The notes below the pieces were generated by a model, which searched no databases, was not told the origin of the DNA, and saw only the letters and a program-made list of their open reading frames with translations. Made by a program: the position numbers and the translations under genes. Of a stretch of DNA of 64,000 bases, positions 1 to 9,906 are shown in pieces; position 1 is the first letter of the stretch, and every line of letters begins with the position of its first letter. Origin of the DNA: Nostoc sp. PCC 7107 (GTDB lineage Bacteria > Cyanobacteriota > Cyanobacteriia > Cyanobacteriales > Nostocaceae). Where the stretch lies: assembly GCF_000316625.1 (NCBI RefSeq), contig NC_019676.1, positions 2,622,501 to 2,686,500 on the forward strand. The letters are read 5' to 3'.

Positions 1-1040
<1,040 letters not shown>

Positions 1041-3008: not shown

Positions 3009-3440
3009 AGAAGTAGCAAAAGAAAAGTTTAAGAATGAAAGAAAAAATTAGTTAAGCCTTATACTTTTTGAAGTATAAGGTTTCTTGTTCTTTATTTTTG
3101 CTGACTAATTTTATATTTTCTCAATGCCTCGATATGTGGTAAATACTACTAAAAATTCCAGAAATTACTGTACATTTTTTGGCTCTAGGCTTTCTAAAGC
3201 ATCATATTTATGTATTATGAAAAATATTTCTTAGCAAATAGGCACATAAGACACTCCAATTAGCCATAATGCTTGTCAATATTGAGTTAGATAATTTTAA
3301 ATTTTGTATGAGAAAATTTTGGATTTGTTAGCAGAGACTAAAGCTATAGTGGATTTAGCAATTCTGCTGTTGGTATGGCGAAGGTTCAGTCATGCTGCCA
3401 GAATATTGGATGAATTAGTTTGGGAAGACACTCTAACTCG
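3009..3440. other. Gene-free AT-rich stretch
   Basis: No open frame with coding character is seen. An inverted repeat around 3054-3083 (CCTTATACTTT, then AAGTATAAGG) could form a hairpin. The part nearest 3441 presumably holds the promoter of the FHA-PrsW gene, but no clear -35/-10 pair was identified. Confidence 0.4.
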
Positions 3441-4820
3441 ATGACAGGCAAAAACGCAAGACATAACGCTTTTCTGCGGCTGGTGTCTGGTAATACAGCA
3501 GCTTTTGGTTCAGAATCTCGTTACGCACTACATGCAAGTAAAGAGATGGTAATTGGACGTGACCCCAGCTGTCAGATTGTCTTGGATGCCATGACATATA
3601 GAATGGTATCTCGTCGTCATGCTGCGGTTCGTCCTCTCTCTTCGTCTCCAGATAATAAATTTACTTGGGTAATTTGTGATTTAAATAGCGCGAATGGTAC
3701 TTATCTCAATGGTCAACGTTTTTATGGGTGCCAAGAATTACAATCAGGCGATCGCATTGCTTTAGGTAGTGATGGGCCACAATTTATTTTTGAGTATGAC
3801 TTAATACCTCAACCGACAATGATGACGAAACAAAACGCATCATTGCCTTCAGCCGCTAACTACCAGAATCACACCCAAATCAAGCAGGCTGATTCAGTTA
3901 GCTTTACACAACTTTTTCCGATTATTTCTACTGGTAAGGATTTAACAAGTAAAGCTTACCTTGTTCCAGGAATACTCACAGTAGTTTTTGTCGTGCTAAT
4001 GTTTGCGACTGTTGGTAGACCCCAGGCTAATCAAGTCATTGTCGCCAGTTATATCGCCTTTGTTGTTTACTACTTTGTTTATCAATTGTGTGGTAAGCAA
4101 AAGCCTTGGTGGGTACTGGTTGGTACAGCGCTGACGACAGCATTAATTTTACTCAGTCCTATCTTAGAATTATTTATTTTTGTGTTTCGTGGTATTCTGC
4201 CAGGTAATTTACCTTCACCTCAAGATTCTACTACATTGACTGAGCTACTAGTACGAATGTTCTTTGGTGCAGGGTTGATGGAAGAATTGCTTAAGGCCTT
4301 ACCTGTACTGGGAGCTTTTGTGATCGGCAGACAATTGCCTTCACCTTGGAGAGAACGCATAGGTGTGTGGGAACCGCTAGATGGCATTCTTTTAGGAACA
4401 GCTTCAGCTTTGGGATTTACTCTTTTAGAAACTCTGGGACAGTATGTACCGGATATTACCCAAAATGTTAGTCAACAGGTAGGTATTGGTGCAGCTGGTC
4501 AATTAGCAGGCTTACAATTGCTGATTCCTCGCGTGTTAGGCTCTGTTGCTGGTCACATGGCTTATAGTGGCTACCTGGGATATTTTATCGGTTTGGCTGT
4601 TCTCAAACCGAGTCAGAGTTGGCAAATTCTCTCGATTGGTTATCTAAGTGCGTCCGCACTCCACGCTTTATGGAACGCTACAGGTTCTATTAACGCTTTG
4701 TTGTTAGTAATTGTTGGGGTTTTATCTTATGCGGTTTTGATGGCGGCAATTTTAAAGGCAAGGGCATTGTCACCAACGCGATCGCAAAATTTTGCTACTC
4801 GCTTTCTCGGCCCTAAATAA
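3441..4820 (+). CDS. FHA domain fused to PrsW-type intramembrane glutamic protease
   Basis: Numbered from an alternative upstream TTG at 3420, residues 20-125 form an FHA phosphothreonine-binding domain (GRDPSCQIVLD, VSRRHA, DLNSANGTYLNG, SGDRIALG). After a linker, residues 180-450 form a multi-spanning membrane domain with the PrsW marks: EELLK at 288-292, GFTLLE at 332-337, RVLGSVAGHM at 371-380 and LHALWN at 414-419. PrsW in Bacillus performs a site-1 cleavage of an anti-sigma factor; here the substrate is unknown. The FHA domain suggests recruitment to a phosphorylated partner. The gene converges on a CHAT-FHA protease and a PP2C phosphatase. The ATG at 3441 is preferred over the TTG, but neither has a clear ribosome-binding site. 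Confidence 0.88.
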   Translation: MTGKNARHNAFLRLVSGNTAAFGSESRYALHASKEMVIGRDPSCQIVLDAMTYRMVSRRHAAVRPLSSSPDNKFTWVICDLNSANGTYLNGQRFYGCQELQSGDRIALGSDGPQFIFEYDLIPQPTMMTKQNASLPSAANYQNHTQIKQADSVSFTQLFPIISTGKDLTSKAYLVPGILTVVFVVLMFATVGRPQANQVIVASYIAFVVYYFVYQLCGKQKPWWVLVGTALTTALILLSPILELFIFVFRGILPGNLPSPQDSTTLTELLVRMFFGAGLMEELLKALPVLGAFVIGRQLPSPWRERIGVWEPLDGILLGTASALGFTLLETLGQYVPDITQNVSQQVGIGAAGQLAGLQLLIPRVLGSVAGHMAYSGYLGYFIGLAVLKPSQSWQILSIGYLSASALHALWNATGSINALLLVIVGVLSYAVLMAAILKARALSPTRSQNFATRFLGPK

Positions 4821-4842
4821 ATTTTTGATAAAATTATCCACT

Positions 4843-4886
4843 AAGGGGTAGAAGTAGAAAATTTACTTTCTGCCCATCTTTTCCTG
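4843..4886 (+). terminator. Probable intrinsic terminator after the FHA-PrsW gene
   Basis: About 20 bases after the stop, GGGGTAGAAGT pairs with ACTTTCTGCCC (one bulged base) across an A/T-rich loop, and a T-containing stretch follows. The stem is imperfect, so the call is moderate. The remaining gene-free sequence to 5143 shows nothing else recognisable. Confidence 0.45.
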
Positions 4887-5143
4887 TGATTCTGATACTA
4901 GGTTTTTTGAACTCAAAGATTGTTTCTGTCTAAAGATAGATTGCATAACTGTAAAAATTGCCTTAGCTTGTGAATACTCTAAGTATCTTCTATCTAAAGA
5001 AAGATATAGCAATCGAAGAATATATTAGGATAAAGACTGGTTGTTTACATCAGCAATACAAGTACTACACAAGAAAAAATAAAGTGGCACTGATTATTTC
5101 ATGATATCAGGCAATAATGTAGAGAATTAAGACAAATTTATAA

Positions 5144-5788
5144 TTAAGCTTCAGTTTCCAATTTGTCTAGCTGTCTGAGAGCATAGTAGGCGATCGCCAC
5201 ACTAACTTTAGCTTGCTCCATTTCTGATAAAGTTGCCCAATCCCGATTTTTAATCTTATTTACAACTGATGCTAGGTTTTGCTGTTCACTGCTACGCATC
5301 GCATAGGCATAAGGACGAGCGAAAACTGCTAGATCGTCAGTTTCCCATGTAGGTAATACAGTTTGAACACACTGCACTAACTGTTCGTTGATTGACTGCT
5401 GCACGGCTACTACTTCTGTCGCTTTCTGAGCGATCGCCTTTAGCCAGATTGTTGGTACTCCAGCCGCAAAAGTATGTAAAGTCTCACAAAGACTGTCTAA
5501 AATGCTGACATTTGTAGTACATTTATAATCATTGCAATTTGCCACTTGAGACCATAGATTGTCTAAATTACCATAAAAAGATTGCGCTTTAGTATGTAGT
5601 TCTTCCTCCAGAACATCCTGCATAGCAAACTGCTTTTCTAATTCATCAAAATATGTCTCTGCTTGATCATCAGCAGGATTCCAAGGATAAGCCGCATCTT
5701 CGGGCTGGAGTAGTAGTTCGAGGAATTCTAATTCCACTTGAGTTGGCGAGGATGGGATATTGTGGGAATTGTTGATTTTTTTAATCAT
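5144..5788 (-). CDS. Hypothetical protein of 214 residues, downstream of the CHAT-FHA gene
   Basis: I do not recognise a family. The protein is soluble, acidic in its first half and mainly helical in appearance, with no signal peptide, membrane segment or obvious catalytic motif. Residues 22-60 are rich in Glu, Asp and aromatic residues; the C-terminal third has ISYALR-like helices (VSVAIAYYALRQLDKLE). It lies 172 bases after the CHAT-FHA gene on the same strand and could be co-transcribed, which makes it a candidate partner or substrate of that protease. Codon use and a HIP1 site within it look native. It is most likely a real gene because it is long, uninterrupted and in operon-like order. 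Confidence 0.7.
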   Translation of the reverse strand: MIKKINNSHNIPSSPTQVELEFLELLLQPEDAAYPWNPADDQAETYFDELEKQFAMQDVLEEELHTKAQSFYGNLDNLWSQVANCNDYKCTTNVSILDSLCETLHTFAAGVPTIWLKAIAQKATEVVAVQQSINEQLVQCVQTVLPTWETDDLAVFARPYAYAMRSSEQQNLASVVNKIKNRDWATLSEMEQAKVSVAIAYYALRQLDKLETEA

Positions 5789-5960
5789 TTTTCGACTCCT
5801 GATGAATTATTTCGCAGTACTGACTGCTACAAGTTATAAATTACAATTTCCGCAAAAATTAAACTAATTTTATTTAGCAATTGAATCAGGAAAATTATGT
5901 CAGAGCCATTATAGGCCAGGGAGTATACAATTCACTGCCATTTTTATCCTGAAAGAATGC

Positions 5961-7538
5961 TTAATTTTCAATAACAAACTCCCAAGTTTCATTGCCAGAA
6001 TTCCCAAACTTTAACTTGCTTCCCGATTGTAATGGTACTTCCTCCCGAAGAATTTGTTGCCAACCATTAGAGCTTAAACACCAGGTTGTGCCGTAAGTTG
6101 AGAGATCTTGTAAATAATAAGTTTGTACTGGAGTAGTACCCGCAAAAGTATTTCGGCATAAAATTTCGGCATGACGCTTAGAAACTGATGGTTCGGGAAT
6201 TACAATATCATTGTCTTGGGTACGACCAATGCGAGTTACACCTGCTCGCAAAAACCAAGTTCTACCTCCTGGGGCGAGCGATCGCAAACAAGCTTTAGAA
6301 GTAGCAATATTTATATTGACAATTGAAATATCTGGTAACTCTGTAATTCCCTCATCAATGCTTTTAACAAGTTCGCCATTGAAATCTGGATGTAAATACA
6401 GAACTGGTAAAGTCCAAGCAGGTTGGTTGAACTTATACAGTGTTAACATTTCTTGTCGGGCTTCTGCCACAGCTTCATCAATTGGCTTGCGCGATCGCAA
6501 AGCTGCCGCAAAAGCCGTAATAAAACTGTGACTTTCATGGTCAGCAATTACATCTCGCATTCCCAAAACGGCTGGTACGCCATGACGAATTAGTACTTCC
6601 GCTAAACTACTAGCGGGTATTGCTTGGTGATTAACTGCTGCTGGTTGCGCTCCCCAACAAGCATTGAAAACAGCTAATTTTAGCCCACTCCGGGTTAATA
6701 CTTGCGCTAATTCTATGCCGTTGAGTGTCTTGCTAGGACGTAAAAACAACAGTCCTCCATCTGGGCCAGGCAATCCATGACCAGCGTAAAAAAAGACATT
6801 GTAAGCCTTAGTTTCTAATTCTTGAATCAATTCCTGCGGTGTTGGTTGAATTAGTGTTTTCACCATACAAGGAGCAAATCCTGGATAATTCCGATTTATT
6901 TGCGGTTTATTCTCCAGAATTTGTTGCAAAATAATTGCTTCTTTTTCGAGTTGCAAGTTTTCATCATGACCTAAAACCAGCAAGATATTTATAGCCTGAT
7001 CCGTTCGTAAAAAAGGCAACGGTTCAACTTCACTTGTGGTGCGGCTAAACAGCAAATCTTGGGCGAGAGAAATTGCCGATTGTCCGGGTTGGCGCTGCAT
7101 AATTTCCCAGGGCAAGGCGATCAAATCTGGGTCACGAATTTCCAGTTGAAAGCGCAAACGTGTATTCTGTCCCATCGCCATTCCACAACTGCGTTCAAGA
7201 CTGCTGAGGATTGGCCCATCAAATACCCAACGCCACAAATATAGCCCTAAGTATTGCATTAAACGACCACTGTAACCAGGCATGTGACCCGAAGTAGTCG
7301 AACCTAAGTTAAACGAGAGAGGGTTGGGAGGTTGAGGTGCTGTGTTGGCTGTAACATTTAAACCACTGTGTCCAGCAAACATTTGCTGCCACTCTTGCCA
7401 CATTTGATTTAGTTCTGAAGGCCATACACAGTCACGCAGAACATAGCCACTAGGGTAGGGTGCTTTGACCACCCAAATGGCAAAGCTATCTGTGCCAGTA
7501 TTGATGAGACGGGCGATCGCTAAGTTCAGGGATGGCAT
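5961..7538 (-). CDS. CHAT-domain (caspase-like) protease with C-terminal FHA domain
   Basis: Numbered from the ATG at 7538 (525 residues), the CHAT domain spans about 180-390. It carries the His-Cys dyad of this clan CD family: His254 in FFYAGHG and Cys294 in VFNACWG, followed by the ADHESHSFITAFAAAL helix. A C-terminal FHA domain (about 430-520) has IGRTQDNDIVI, SVSKRHAE and LQDLSTYGTTW. The N-terminal 170 residues contain LPWEIM, also common before CHAT domains. CHAT proteins are separase/caspase relatives, and several act in bacterial immunity or programmed death, but the role here is unknown. The frame opens earlier at a TTG (7550), but the ATG is the likelier start. It sits between a PP2C phosphatase gene and an orphan gene. 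Confidence 0.9.
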   Translation of the reverse strand: MPSLNLAIARLINTGTDSFAIWVVKAPYPSGYVLRDCVWPSELNQMWQEWQQMFAGHSGLNVTANTAPQPPNPLSFNLGSTTSGHMPGYSGRLMQYLGLYLWRWVFDGPILSSLERSCGMAMGQNTRLRFQLEIRDPDLIALPWEIMQRQPGQSAISLAQDLLFSRTTSEVEPLPFLRTDQAINILLVLGHDENLQLEKEAIILQQILENKPQINRNYPGFAPCMVKTLIQPTPQELIQELETKAYNVFFYAGHGLPGPDGGLLFLRPSKTLNGIELAQVLTRSGLKLAVFNACWGAQPAAVNHQAIPASSLAEVLIRHGVPAVLGMRDVIADHESHSFITAFAAALRSRKPIDEAVAEARQEMLTLYKFNQPAWTLPVLYLHPDFNGELVKSIDEGITELPDISIVNINIATSKACLRSLAPGGRTWFLRAGVTRIGRTQDNDIVIPEPSVSKRHAEILCRNTFAGTTPVQTYYLQDLSTYGTTWCLSSNGWQQILREEVPLQSGSKLKFGNSGNETWEFVIEN

Positions 7539-7692
7539 GGGTTCTTTCAATTAAAAGGTAGAAACCAAGGACTTGCGATAACAATTTTCCATGAGGAAAA
7601 CTTTTCGCCTGGAAGTTTTAAATCTGGTTATTAAATGTATTATTCCAGGCTTATACAAGTTTATCGAGTATTGGTCGCATTTTCACTGACTA

Positions 7693-9906
7693 TTATTTTC
7701 CCGAACTTGAGCGAGATGTAGGAGTTTCACTATCTAATGGTTGAGATAAATTATCACAACTACTAGTGTCTGTTGATTTTAGTACAGTGATGTCTGAACG
7801 TTGGAGTTGAGCTAAGGTGACACGCAGTGGTTTGTCAGATGGAAGAAATGTACTATTTTCTGAGGGGCAAAGCTGCAATTTGATCACCGATTCCGCAGAA
7901 TAGGATGTGTCCTTGGTTTCGATGTCAACCACTCGCATAAAACTACCAGGTTGTAACTTCTGATCGTCTAAGGTAATTTCTCGGCTATTGGTAATTACCC
8001 ACCCAAAAGCAAGGTTATTTAGCGATCGCCCGCTTGTTGAAGCTGGAGTTTGCTGTACATTAGGGCTAGAAACAGGAGGAACTGATGACATAAACAGTCC
8101 GCGCACCAGTAGTCCTAAAGAACCTGCGGCGATCGCGATAATCATTGGCACAATCAGATGGAGTGGTAGTTGCTGAAAAGAACTAGGCTTATTTTTAGGA
8201 ATTAAAGTTTTTTGCTCTGAAATGTCTTCTAGTAAGGTAGGTTGCAGCGGCTTAGGCGTAATGTTGGCGGTTGTGATGGTAGGAAGCTCAACAATAACTG
8301 CTTTGAGAGTTAGCTCTGGCTCAACATATTTAACTTGATAATGAACTAAAGCGATCGTCACATTATCATGGCCATTTTTGGTATTAGCAATTTCCAGCAA
8401 TTTGTCAGCCACGGTGACTAAATCCGTTTCTTCGGTCAAAATTGGTAAAATTTCTGTTTCCCAATATTCTTCTACACGGTCAAAATCACTTAAACCATCA
8501 GATGTCAACAGAAACACAGCATCTTCATCCAGAATAAATCGCTGTGCTGTTGGATGTAACGCTGCACTGGAACTCATCCCTAATGCTTGAACCAAAGAAC
8601 CAGAACCACTCTGTTGTACAGCTTCACGGTAAATGGCATATCCCAAACGTACTTCCCTAGAAGCAACATCATCATCAAGGGTGACTTGGTAGCAAGCATC
8701 TCGTGTAATCCAATAAGCGCGACTATCACCAACATGGGTAATATACATTTCATGGGCTACTGGCAATGCCATTACCAAAGTTGTACCCATACGTTTTCTA
8801 CCCTGGCGGTTTTCACTGTCATTGCGTTGGCTGATTTTATCATTGGCAACTGCTACAGCTTGCTCCAGATCTGCCAGCAACAGTGAGGGTTCTATATGGT
8901 TATAAGGAACTTTGGTGAGTTGTTGTACTTGCTGTTGAATTGTTTCAATTGCTAAATTAGATGCGACATTACCGCCTTCATGTCCACCAATTCCGTCACA
9001 GACAATAGCCAAGGCTGTGGCTTGTGGAGGTTTACTCAACAATGTGCCACTGGCTGGGTAACAGGCATCTTCATTGCGTTGTCGTTTCGGGCCAGTGTCA
9101 GTTTTAGTGATAATCTGAATTTTTGGCGATTGCAATTCCCCCAACTCTGCTAATCCTCGGTCTAAAACTGAGATTAATACTTCAGGTGAATTGATTTCTC
9201 CTTGAATTAGATAACTGCTGACTTGGTTAACAAATTCTGCGATCGCTGGTTTGGTATCTGGCAACAACTGCTGCCAAAAATCTCCTAAATGTGATAACTT
9301 TGGTGCTGTTGAGGTATCAGAACGTAATTCTAATAAGCGAACCAAAGACCCTTCTACTCTTAATAAGTGGGTATCAATTAAGCTAGAAGCAACACCTTCA
9401 CTTACCAAAGGTTGCCACAGATGAGCTAATTGCCATAACCAGTTCAGTTGACGCATGGATGTAGCTGTGCGCCAAGCATTAGTTAACTGGGGACACAACC
9501 TTAATTGAGAGTCTGTCGTCGGTTCTGTTAATAACGGCGGTTTTTCTAAAAGTAAAATTTCTTTGCGAGAGCGTCCATCCTTTAGAGACAGCACTCCATA
9601 CACCTGCGGTATATGTAAGCTGTAGGGGATTAGTCTCAAATAAGCTCTGATAGTTTGTACGTTTTCTGTTTCTAATCCTTGAGGGAGTAATCCAGGCTTA
9701 GTATCTAAAACCACAGATTTATTGAGGACTAAATAGCGATCGGCTAATATTTCTCCGGGACTACCCACATTGAGAACATCACCTACAACCCAGAGATATC
9801 GTTTGGGTATGGGTGTAGAACATCGTTGGCAAAACTTATGAGTCAGGGGATTAGCAGCCTGACAAAGTTCATTTGGGCAGTAGAGGGTTGCCGCATCATT
9901 TTCCAT
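7693..9906 (-). CDS. PP2C-type Ser/Thr protein phosphatase with N-terminal zinc ribbon and a membrane segment
   Basis: The 737-residue protein begins with a four-cysteine zinc ribbon (Cys10, Cys15, Cys26, Cys29). Residues 40-250 are a region I cannot assign; its opening (ILADRYLVLNKSV) faintly recalls a kinase N-lobe but no kinase motifs follow. Residues 268-523 are a complete PP2C domain with the metal-binding signatures RNEDA (277-281), DGIGGHEGG (304-312), GDSRAY (393-398), TSDGLSD (468-474) and GHDNVT (512-517). A single membrane helix follows at about 583-603, then a C-terminal domain of about 130 residues presumably on the other side of the membrane. It would remove phosphate from Ser/Thr and so oppose binding by the FHA proteins encoded next to it. 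It is the first gene of the minus-strand group. Confidence 0.92.
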   Translation of the reverse strand: MENDAATLYCPNELCQAANPLTHKFCQRCSTPIPKRYLWVVGDVLNVGSPGEILADRYLVLNKSVVLDTKPGLLPQGLETENVQTIRAYLRLIPYSLHIPQVYGVLSLKDGRSRKEILLLEKPPLLTEPTTDSQLRLCPQLTNAWRTATSMRQLNWLWQLAHLWQPLVSEGVASSLIDTHLLRVEGSLVRLLELRSDTSTAPKLSHLGDFWQQLLPDTKPAIAEFVNQVSSYLIQGEINSPEVLISVLDRGLAELGELQSPKIQIITKTDTGPKRQRNEDACYPASGTLLSKPPQATALAIVCDGIGGHEGGNVASNLAIETIQQQVQQLTKVPYNHIEPSLLLADLEQAVAVANDKISQRNDSENRQGRKRMGTTLVMALPVAHEMYITHVGDSRAYWITRDACYQVTLDDDVASREVRLGYAIYREAVQQSGSGSLVQALGMSSSAALHPTAQRFILDEDAVFLLTSDGLSDFDRVEEYWETEILPILTEETDLVTVADKLLEIANTKNGHDNVTIALVHYQVKYVEPELTLKAVIVELPTITTANITPKPLQPTLLEDISEQKTLIPKNKPSSFQQLPLHLIVPMIIAIAAGSLGLLVRGLFMSSVPPVSSPNVQQTPASTSGRSLNNLAFGWVITNSREITLDDQKLQPGSFMRVVDIETKDTSYSAESVIKLQLCPSENSTFLPSDKPLRVTLAQLQRSDITVLKSTDTSSCDNLSQPLDSETPTSRSSSGK

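Follow-up and report, generated by a model that had tools for sequence, protein, structure and literature searches.

Gene content of the locus

We analysed a stretch of 64,000 nucleotides from Nostoc sp. PCC 7107 (NC_019676.1, positions 2,622,501 to 2,686,500; hereafter the window), which is part of a complete 6.33 Mb cyanobacterial chromosome, and focused on a four-gene locus that encodes a CHAT-FHA protease and an adjoining protein without a recognised family, referred to here as the orphan. An earlier note on this DNA had described four genes lying together, and the list of open reading frames (ORFs) and Pfam confirmed that all four are real and intact as described. Three are transcribed from the minus strand in the order PP2C phosphatase (7693..9906), CHAT-FHA (5961..7550) and orphan (5144..5788). 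The fourth, FHA-PrsW (3420..4820, with an ATG at 3441), lies on the plus strand as a convergent neighbour. The locus is flanked by a 16S rRNA gene and nadC on one side and by ndhM on the other. Promoter and terminator scans of the locus stayed at about chance level, and Pfam detected no Cas families among the seven proteins scanned.

CHAT-FHA has potential starts at a TTG (7550) and an ATG (7538). Its CHAT domain scored 65.2 bits with PF12770 (gathering cut-off 24) and its FHA domain (6003..6236, minus strand) 54.3 bits with PF00498 (cut-off 20.7), both above cut-off. The predicted catalytic residues, numbered from the ATG at 7538 (numbers in the ORF list are four higher), are His254 (6777..6779) and Cys294 (6657..6659) on the minus strand, and both were present in 68 of 68 diverse homologues, the window included. 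The earlier note had called this dyad intact, as did a larger alignment of relatives, in which His was kept in 110 of 110 and Cys in 109, with a single gap. CHAT-FHA lacks a hydropathy peak indicating a transmembrane (TM) segment. A search of the PDB with its profile returned four rows at E 0.01, all within the FHA part.

The orphan gave no Pfam match at E 0.01 and no NCBIfam match. When Pfam was run over 63 orphans, 37 families were matched, and among the 25 families listed none occurred in more than two members. Two possible relatives were taken as chance, namely phrog_30199 (function unknown), which was the sole match in PHROGs (E 0.028), and ZorA, the best sequence match in the PDB (E 0.042). 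The AlphaFold (AF2) model of the orphan is all-helical, with a mean predicted local distance difference test (pLDDT) of 75.

CHAT-FHA and the orphan occur together across the class

The orphan and full-length CHAT-FHA were each searched for by profile in one shared set of 242 class genomes. Each protein was found in 116 genomes; 115 held both, one CHAT-FHA alone, one the orphan alone, and 125 neither, giving a phi coefficient of 0.98. Since the sampled genomes are related to one another, these and the other co-occurrence figures are descriptive. In the single genome with CHAT-FHA alone (G296) the gene lies 142 bp from a contig end; the single genome with the orphan alone is G017. The two genes were adjacent in 94 of the 115 genomes with both, always on the same strand with the orphan downstream, and were separated by a median of 207 bp (up to 1145 bp). 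Among the 21 pairs not found adjacent, 18 lay on different contigs and three far apart on one contig. The orphan also adjoins CHAT in all of the 80 best-matching CHAT-FHA loci, and no frame listed in the class searches was long enough for a fusion of the two proteins. HetF-type CHAT rows (34-39% identity in the order, E above 1e-66 in the class) were left out of these counts, so that 89 of 100 CHAT genomes were kept in the order and 116 of 119 in the class, where G139, G217 and G243 had HetF-type rows only.

A set of 130 genomes of the order, examined with single-protein searches, gave a softer association (phi 0.76). The orphan was found there in 86 of 89 CHAT genomes. The three CHAT-only genomes comprise one that is 61% complete (G030) and two whose CHAT contains stops (G044 and G123).

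A Met-Arg motif in the orphan has decayed in one family with loss of CHAT-FHA

We aligned 84 orphans, 75 of which came from CHAT-bearing genomes; dropping two fragments (L197 and L132) left 73, and an 80-residue orphan piece from G023 was too short to enter the alignment. Across these 73 orphans, 28 positions were conserved at 85% or more. Arg165 was present in 73 of 73 and was preceded by Met164 in 70 (FR in two, LR in one). The residue following the motif was G in 35, S in 23, D in 11, N in three and E in one. Met-Arg was likewise present in 81 of 81 orphans when the 80 best loci and the window were counted. In the AlphaFold model the helix spanning residues 150-166 ends at Met-Arg, and in the alignment a variable, gap-rich loop follows. 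We propose Met164-Arg165 (5294..5299, minus strand) as a candidate cleavage or recognition site, based on its conservation in CHAT-bearing genomes and its decay in one family, f18.

In this family, 19 genomes were searched for CHAT-FHA and the orphan. The motif was present in all eight CHAT-bearing genomes versus none of the six with a full orphan and no CHAT-FHA. Two of the others held a truncated orphan without CHAT, and three lacked both a full CHAT-FHA and the orphan; of these, two were 65-74% complete. Orphans L275 and L276 (G362 and G363, genomes 84% and 73% complete, in which no CHAT-FHA was found) end after about 80-90 residues. When five CHAT-less f18 orphans were compared over the 28 conserved positions, 25 positions were kept in at least four of the five; those lost were L104 (in five), M164 (in five) and R165 (in four), and no other position was lost in three or more. 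Two CHAT-less genomes, G102 and G067, retain between the orphan and PP2C coding sequence for roughly the final 43 CHAT-FHA residues (E 1.2e-7 and 4.8e-4), and CHAT was therefore probably deleted in them. The CHAT-less f18 orphans are still under purifying selection, with ratios of non-synonymous to synonymous substitution (dN/dS) of 0.13-0.46 over five pairs; three CHAT-bearing pairs gave 0.14-0.22.

FHA domain and linker of CHAT-FHA

FHA domains contact phosphothreonine through an Arg, a Ser and the Asn of an SxNGT motif. The earlier note had claimed complete FHA motifs on both proteases, and had named the absence of these contacts as evidence that would count against its proposal. For FHA-PrsW the claim held, with Arg, Ser, His and both Asn kept in 91 of 91 readable relatives. 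For CHAT-FHA it held only in part: the window protein has the Arg and the Ser, but Tyr replaces the Asn. Specifically, among the 68 diverse homologues the Gly and Ser were kept in 68 and the Arg in 57, and the Asn position was occupied by Y, F or W in 66 and by N in two. A wider set of 108 readable relatives had Y or F there in 106. The FHA Arg is lost and the linker Thr399 kept in homologues L214, L191, L217, L222, L192, L221, L224, L220, L219, L212 and L218 (11 of 68).

Thr399 (403 in the ORF-list numbering; 6342..6344, minus strand) is a candidate phosphosite in a T-x-x-P motif. Of the 45 positions in the linker from CHAT to FHA it alone is fully invariant (68 of 68 homologues), and Pro follows at +3 in 66 of 68. 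Ten aligned HetF-type paralogues (one partial), read by eye, had no conserved Thr at this position. As the earlier note had stated, there is no kinase gene in the window; none of the 57 PF00069 matches across the genome falls inside it.

A proposed protease and its probable dedicated partner

On balance we lean, by a modest degree, towards a reading in which CHAT-FHA acts as a caspase-like cysteine protease, with the orphan as its dedicated and near-obligate partner and most likely its substrate, at Met164-Arg165. CHAT-FHA would cut, or dock on, the orphan at this helix end beside the variable loop. A cut here would split the orphan into an acidic part of about 165 residues and a helical tail of about 49 residues, and one of the two fragments may carry the output. 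Protease activity, cutting of the orphan and output through a fragment are all predictions from sequence comparison. More tentatively, the FHA domain and Thr399 may form a phosphothreonine latch; one of the many Hanks-type kinases encoded in this genome would set it. A role for PP2C or FHA-PrsW in resetting the latch is possible, without specific support. We regard as doubtful the still broader proposal of a class-wide pathway in which a Hanks-type kinase phosphorylates the invariant linker Thr, the fused FHA domain binds it in cis and CHAT is thereby gated, a single Met-Arg cut in the one helical partner follows and the fragment is the signal.

Several observations weigh against the protease-substrate reading. 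The orphan model is of moderate confidence only (predicted template modelling score 0.49). In the order set, 10 of 96 orphan genomes are without CHAT-FHA, which makes a further function of the orphan probable. The Fisher test of the f18 Met-Arg contrast (p = 3.3e-4) overstates it because the six CHAT-less genomes may share one loss. In all six, moreover, L104 is changed as well, and two of them (G017 and G360) keep the Arg and lose only the Met, G360 having also lost the nearby R158. Relaxation may extend past the motif, as the dN/dS values of CHAT-less orphans lie above those of the CHAT-bearing pairs. Outside f18 the CHAT-less orphans differ from one another: in G024 and G080 the motif is gone and decay is broad (10 and 8 of the 28 positions), G051 keeps only the Arg (LR), and G070 (77% complete) keeps Met-Arg. 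As for the latch, the FHA domain is without its Asn, and Thr399 stays in the 11 homologues that lost the Arg. This weakens the idea of Thr399 as a pure FHA ligand, and another role for this residue is therefore possible.

The alternative that survives best is that the orphan regulates CHAT-FHA as an activator, an adaptor or a pseudo-substrate inhibitor, so that Met-Arg fits the active site without productive cleavage. The same co-occurrence and motif decay would be expected, and the lack of a long frame joining CHAT to the orphan is also in keeping with it. We nevertheless consider a regulator unlikely, since an orphan still under selection after loss of CHAT fits a substrate with a job of its own better than a dedicated inhibitor.

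The substrate reading can be set beside two known systems. HetF, a CHAT protease of heterocystous cyanobacteria, belongs to the same CHAT family as CHAT-FHA, and their His/Cys regions align. However, CHAT-FHA scored 140.3 bits with the HetF model NF045509 of NCBIfam against a cut-off of 1200 bits. HetF has TM and TPR parts (PMC8406250), whereas CHAT-FHA instead carries FHA; a role in limiting or degrading PatU3 has been suggested for HetF (PMC12288457). The second system is Craspase of type III-E CRISPR, in which TPR-CHAT acts with Csx30. The likeness consists in a CHAT protease with a partner, the Craspase partner being cut at one site; by Pfam, CHAT-FHA has FHA and lacks TPR. The CHAT cleavage sites given in PMC11106740 lie between L and D, M and K, and A and S. 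The M-K site lends support to Met-Arg of the orphan. Unlike Met-Arg, though, the Craspase sites are not conserved, which is a further point against a cut at Met164-Arg165.

An open-licence literature search did not find such a CHAT-FHA and partner pathway described in cyanobacteria. To our knowledge, the natural substrates of bacterial caspase-like proteases have been established for few families. If the pathway proposed here is true, it would amount to a caspase-like cascade in bacteria, under phosphothreonine control and not tied to heterocyst-formers, and it could link signalling by Hanks-type kinases, whose matches number in the dozens in this genome, to irreversible proteolysis. Across a whole class, the proposal points to one protease, one partner and one pair of residues, and evolution has already carried out one knock-out.

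Linkage of the four genes

The close relatives used here were the best 80 of 469 CHAT-FHA loci, mostly from Nostoc, Anabaena and kin, some of them cut by contig ends. PP2C lay within a few kb in 78 of these loci and PrsW in 74. Since ndhM was also present in 74, linkage inside the window's own family proves little. With ndhM as a control neighbour, we counted gene pairs over the 130 genomes of the order, outside that family, as near when they lay within 10 kb in genomes with both genes; split contigs lower all of these counts. CHAT and the orphan were near in 47 of 79 genomes, PrsW and the orphan in 36 of 61, CHAT and PP2C in 34 of 79, CHAT and PrsW in 24 of 56, and the control pair PP2C and ndhM in 60 of 112. 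In the 42 genomes where CHAT and PP2C were apart or on different contigs, ndhM had PP2C nearby in 25 and CHAT in no case. This places PP2C in an older housekeeping block, whose order in several other families is a def-like gene, prsW, orphan, chat, pp2c, ndhM and a leuD-like gene; the def-like and leuD-like names here, and peptide-deformylase-like below, are presumptive and were assigned by reading the sequences.

FHA-PrsW was found in 150 of the 242 class genomes, 88 with CHAT and 62 without, and was missing from 28 of the 116 CHAT genomes (phi 0.27, or 0.33 without seven f49 rows that match the PrsW part only). The corresponding phi in the order set was 0.37. PrsW counts in the order exclude FHA-only rows (76 of 86 genomes kept), and PP2C was counted there in at least 123 of 126 genomes. 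An ancient gene order seems to account for the presence of PP2C and FHA-PrsW beside the pair.

The earlier note had joined the two FHA proteases and PP2C into one switch, a phosphorylation-controlled proteolysis circuit. Of the 60 genomes in the order set that hold all four genes, 22 have them inside 12 kb, and near pairs keep a constant relative strand; the nearness of PrsW to the orphan outside the family and the suggestion in PMC3482391 that FHA-PrsW is a signalling peptidase would also suit such a circuit. We nonetheless judge it improbable, as PP2C tracks ndhM and not CHAT, and the coupling between FHA-PrsW and CHAT is weak across the class. The four-gene island as a functional unit was rejected on the ndhM control and the class-wide distribution of FHA-PrsW; the CHAT-orphan pair is what stands out.

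A programmed-death or phage-defence module, also raised in the earlier note, is more improbable still. The action of a CHAT protease in the Craspase CRISPR system (PMC11106740) speaks for it, but the housekeeping setting of the locus is conserved across many families, and a phage-defence role drew no support from PADLOC, whose models gave no match for CHAT, the orphan or PrsW at E 0.1 and for PP2C only PDC-M21C at 14.4 bits. Shared ancestry without any functional link is very improbable as the cause of CHAT-orphan co-occurrence: the synteny of this block is old, yet its FHA-PrsW is far less tightly coupled, and the 21 CHAT-orphan pairs not found adjacent still co-occur.

Features of the neighbouring genes

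The PP2C domain scored 45.8 bits with PF13672, above the cut-off of 24. The earlier note had called the phosphatase intact, and this was borne out: residues D280, D304, D470 and D514 of the window protein, which we take to be metal-binding, have counterparts in 108-109 of 110 relatives. The model (pLDDT 82.3) gave Foldseek and VIA matches to PstP and tPphA over about residues 258-528, and a hydropathy peak near residue 583 is a predicted TM stretch. Compared with these bacterial PP2Cs, the window protein adds an N-terminal ribbon and kinase-like region, the TM stretch and a C-terminal domain. It scored 252.7 with PRK14559 of NCBIfam, below the cut-off of 374.

The N-terminal region (residues 50-262; 9121..9759, minus strand) is probably a dead kinase-like domain. 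A four-Cys ribbon precedes it, as in several Ser/Thr kinases of the same genome, and residues 4-183 are colinear with these ribbon-bearing kinases through the HRD position (hhalign 93%, ribbon included). That position reads S-S-L, so the catalytic HRD residues are not kept. The order of strands and helices in the model, from 58 to 256, resembles the kinase fold. Sequence alone did not show a pseudokinase: the hhalign probability fell below 1% once the ribbon was removed. Matches listed in the fold search (the best 50 of 805 from Foldseek; 50 from VIA) all lay over the PP2C domain and were uninformative on the kinase-like region, and a PDB sequence search with the N-terminus gave no match at E 5. 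A second PP2C of similar layout, 41% identical, is encoded in the same genome (G000:C1:2768353-2770152, L160), and a pair of such PP2Cs occurs in many of the order's genomes.

FHA-PrsW combines PF00498 with PF13367 (136 bits), and its PrsW residues E281, E282, K285, E330, H372, H408 and N412 were kept in 92 of 92 relatives. The fusion of FHA to PrsW is mentioned in PMC3482391; the same fusion occurs here, but only as a neighbour of the CHAT-orphan pair. The C-terminal tail (window about 4770-4817) is highly conserved (Thr446 and Thr453 do not vary among 26 aligned proteins) and is a possible ligand of the protein's own FHA domain. Of 31 neighbourhoods fetched (L121-L151), 15 had a peptide-deformylase-like gene near FHA-PrsW, or 15 of the 17 that showed FHA-PrsW. 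The bacterial 16S rRNA gene beside the locus occupies window positions 1-1040 on the minus strand, where the edge of the window truncates it (Rfam RF00177, 1059.5 bits).

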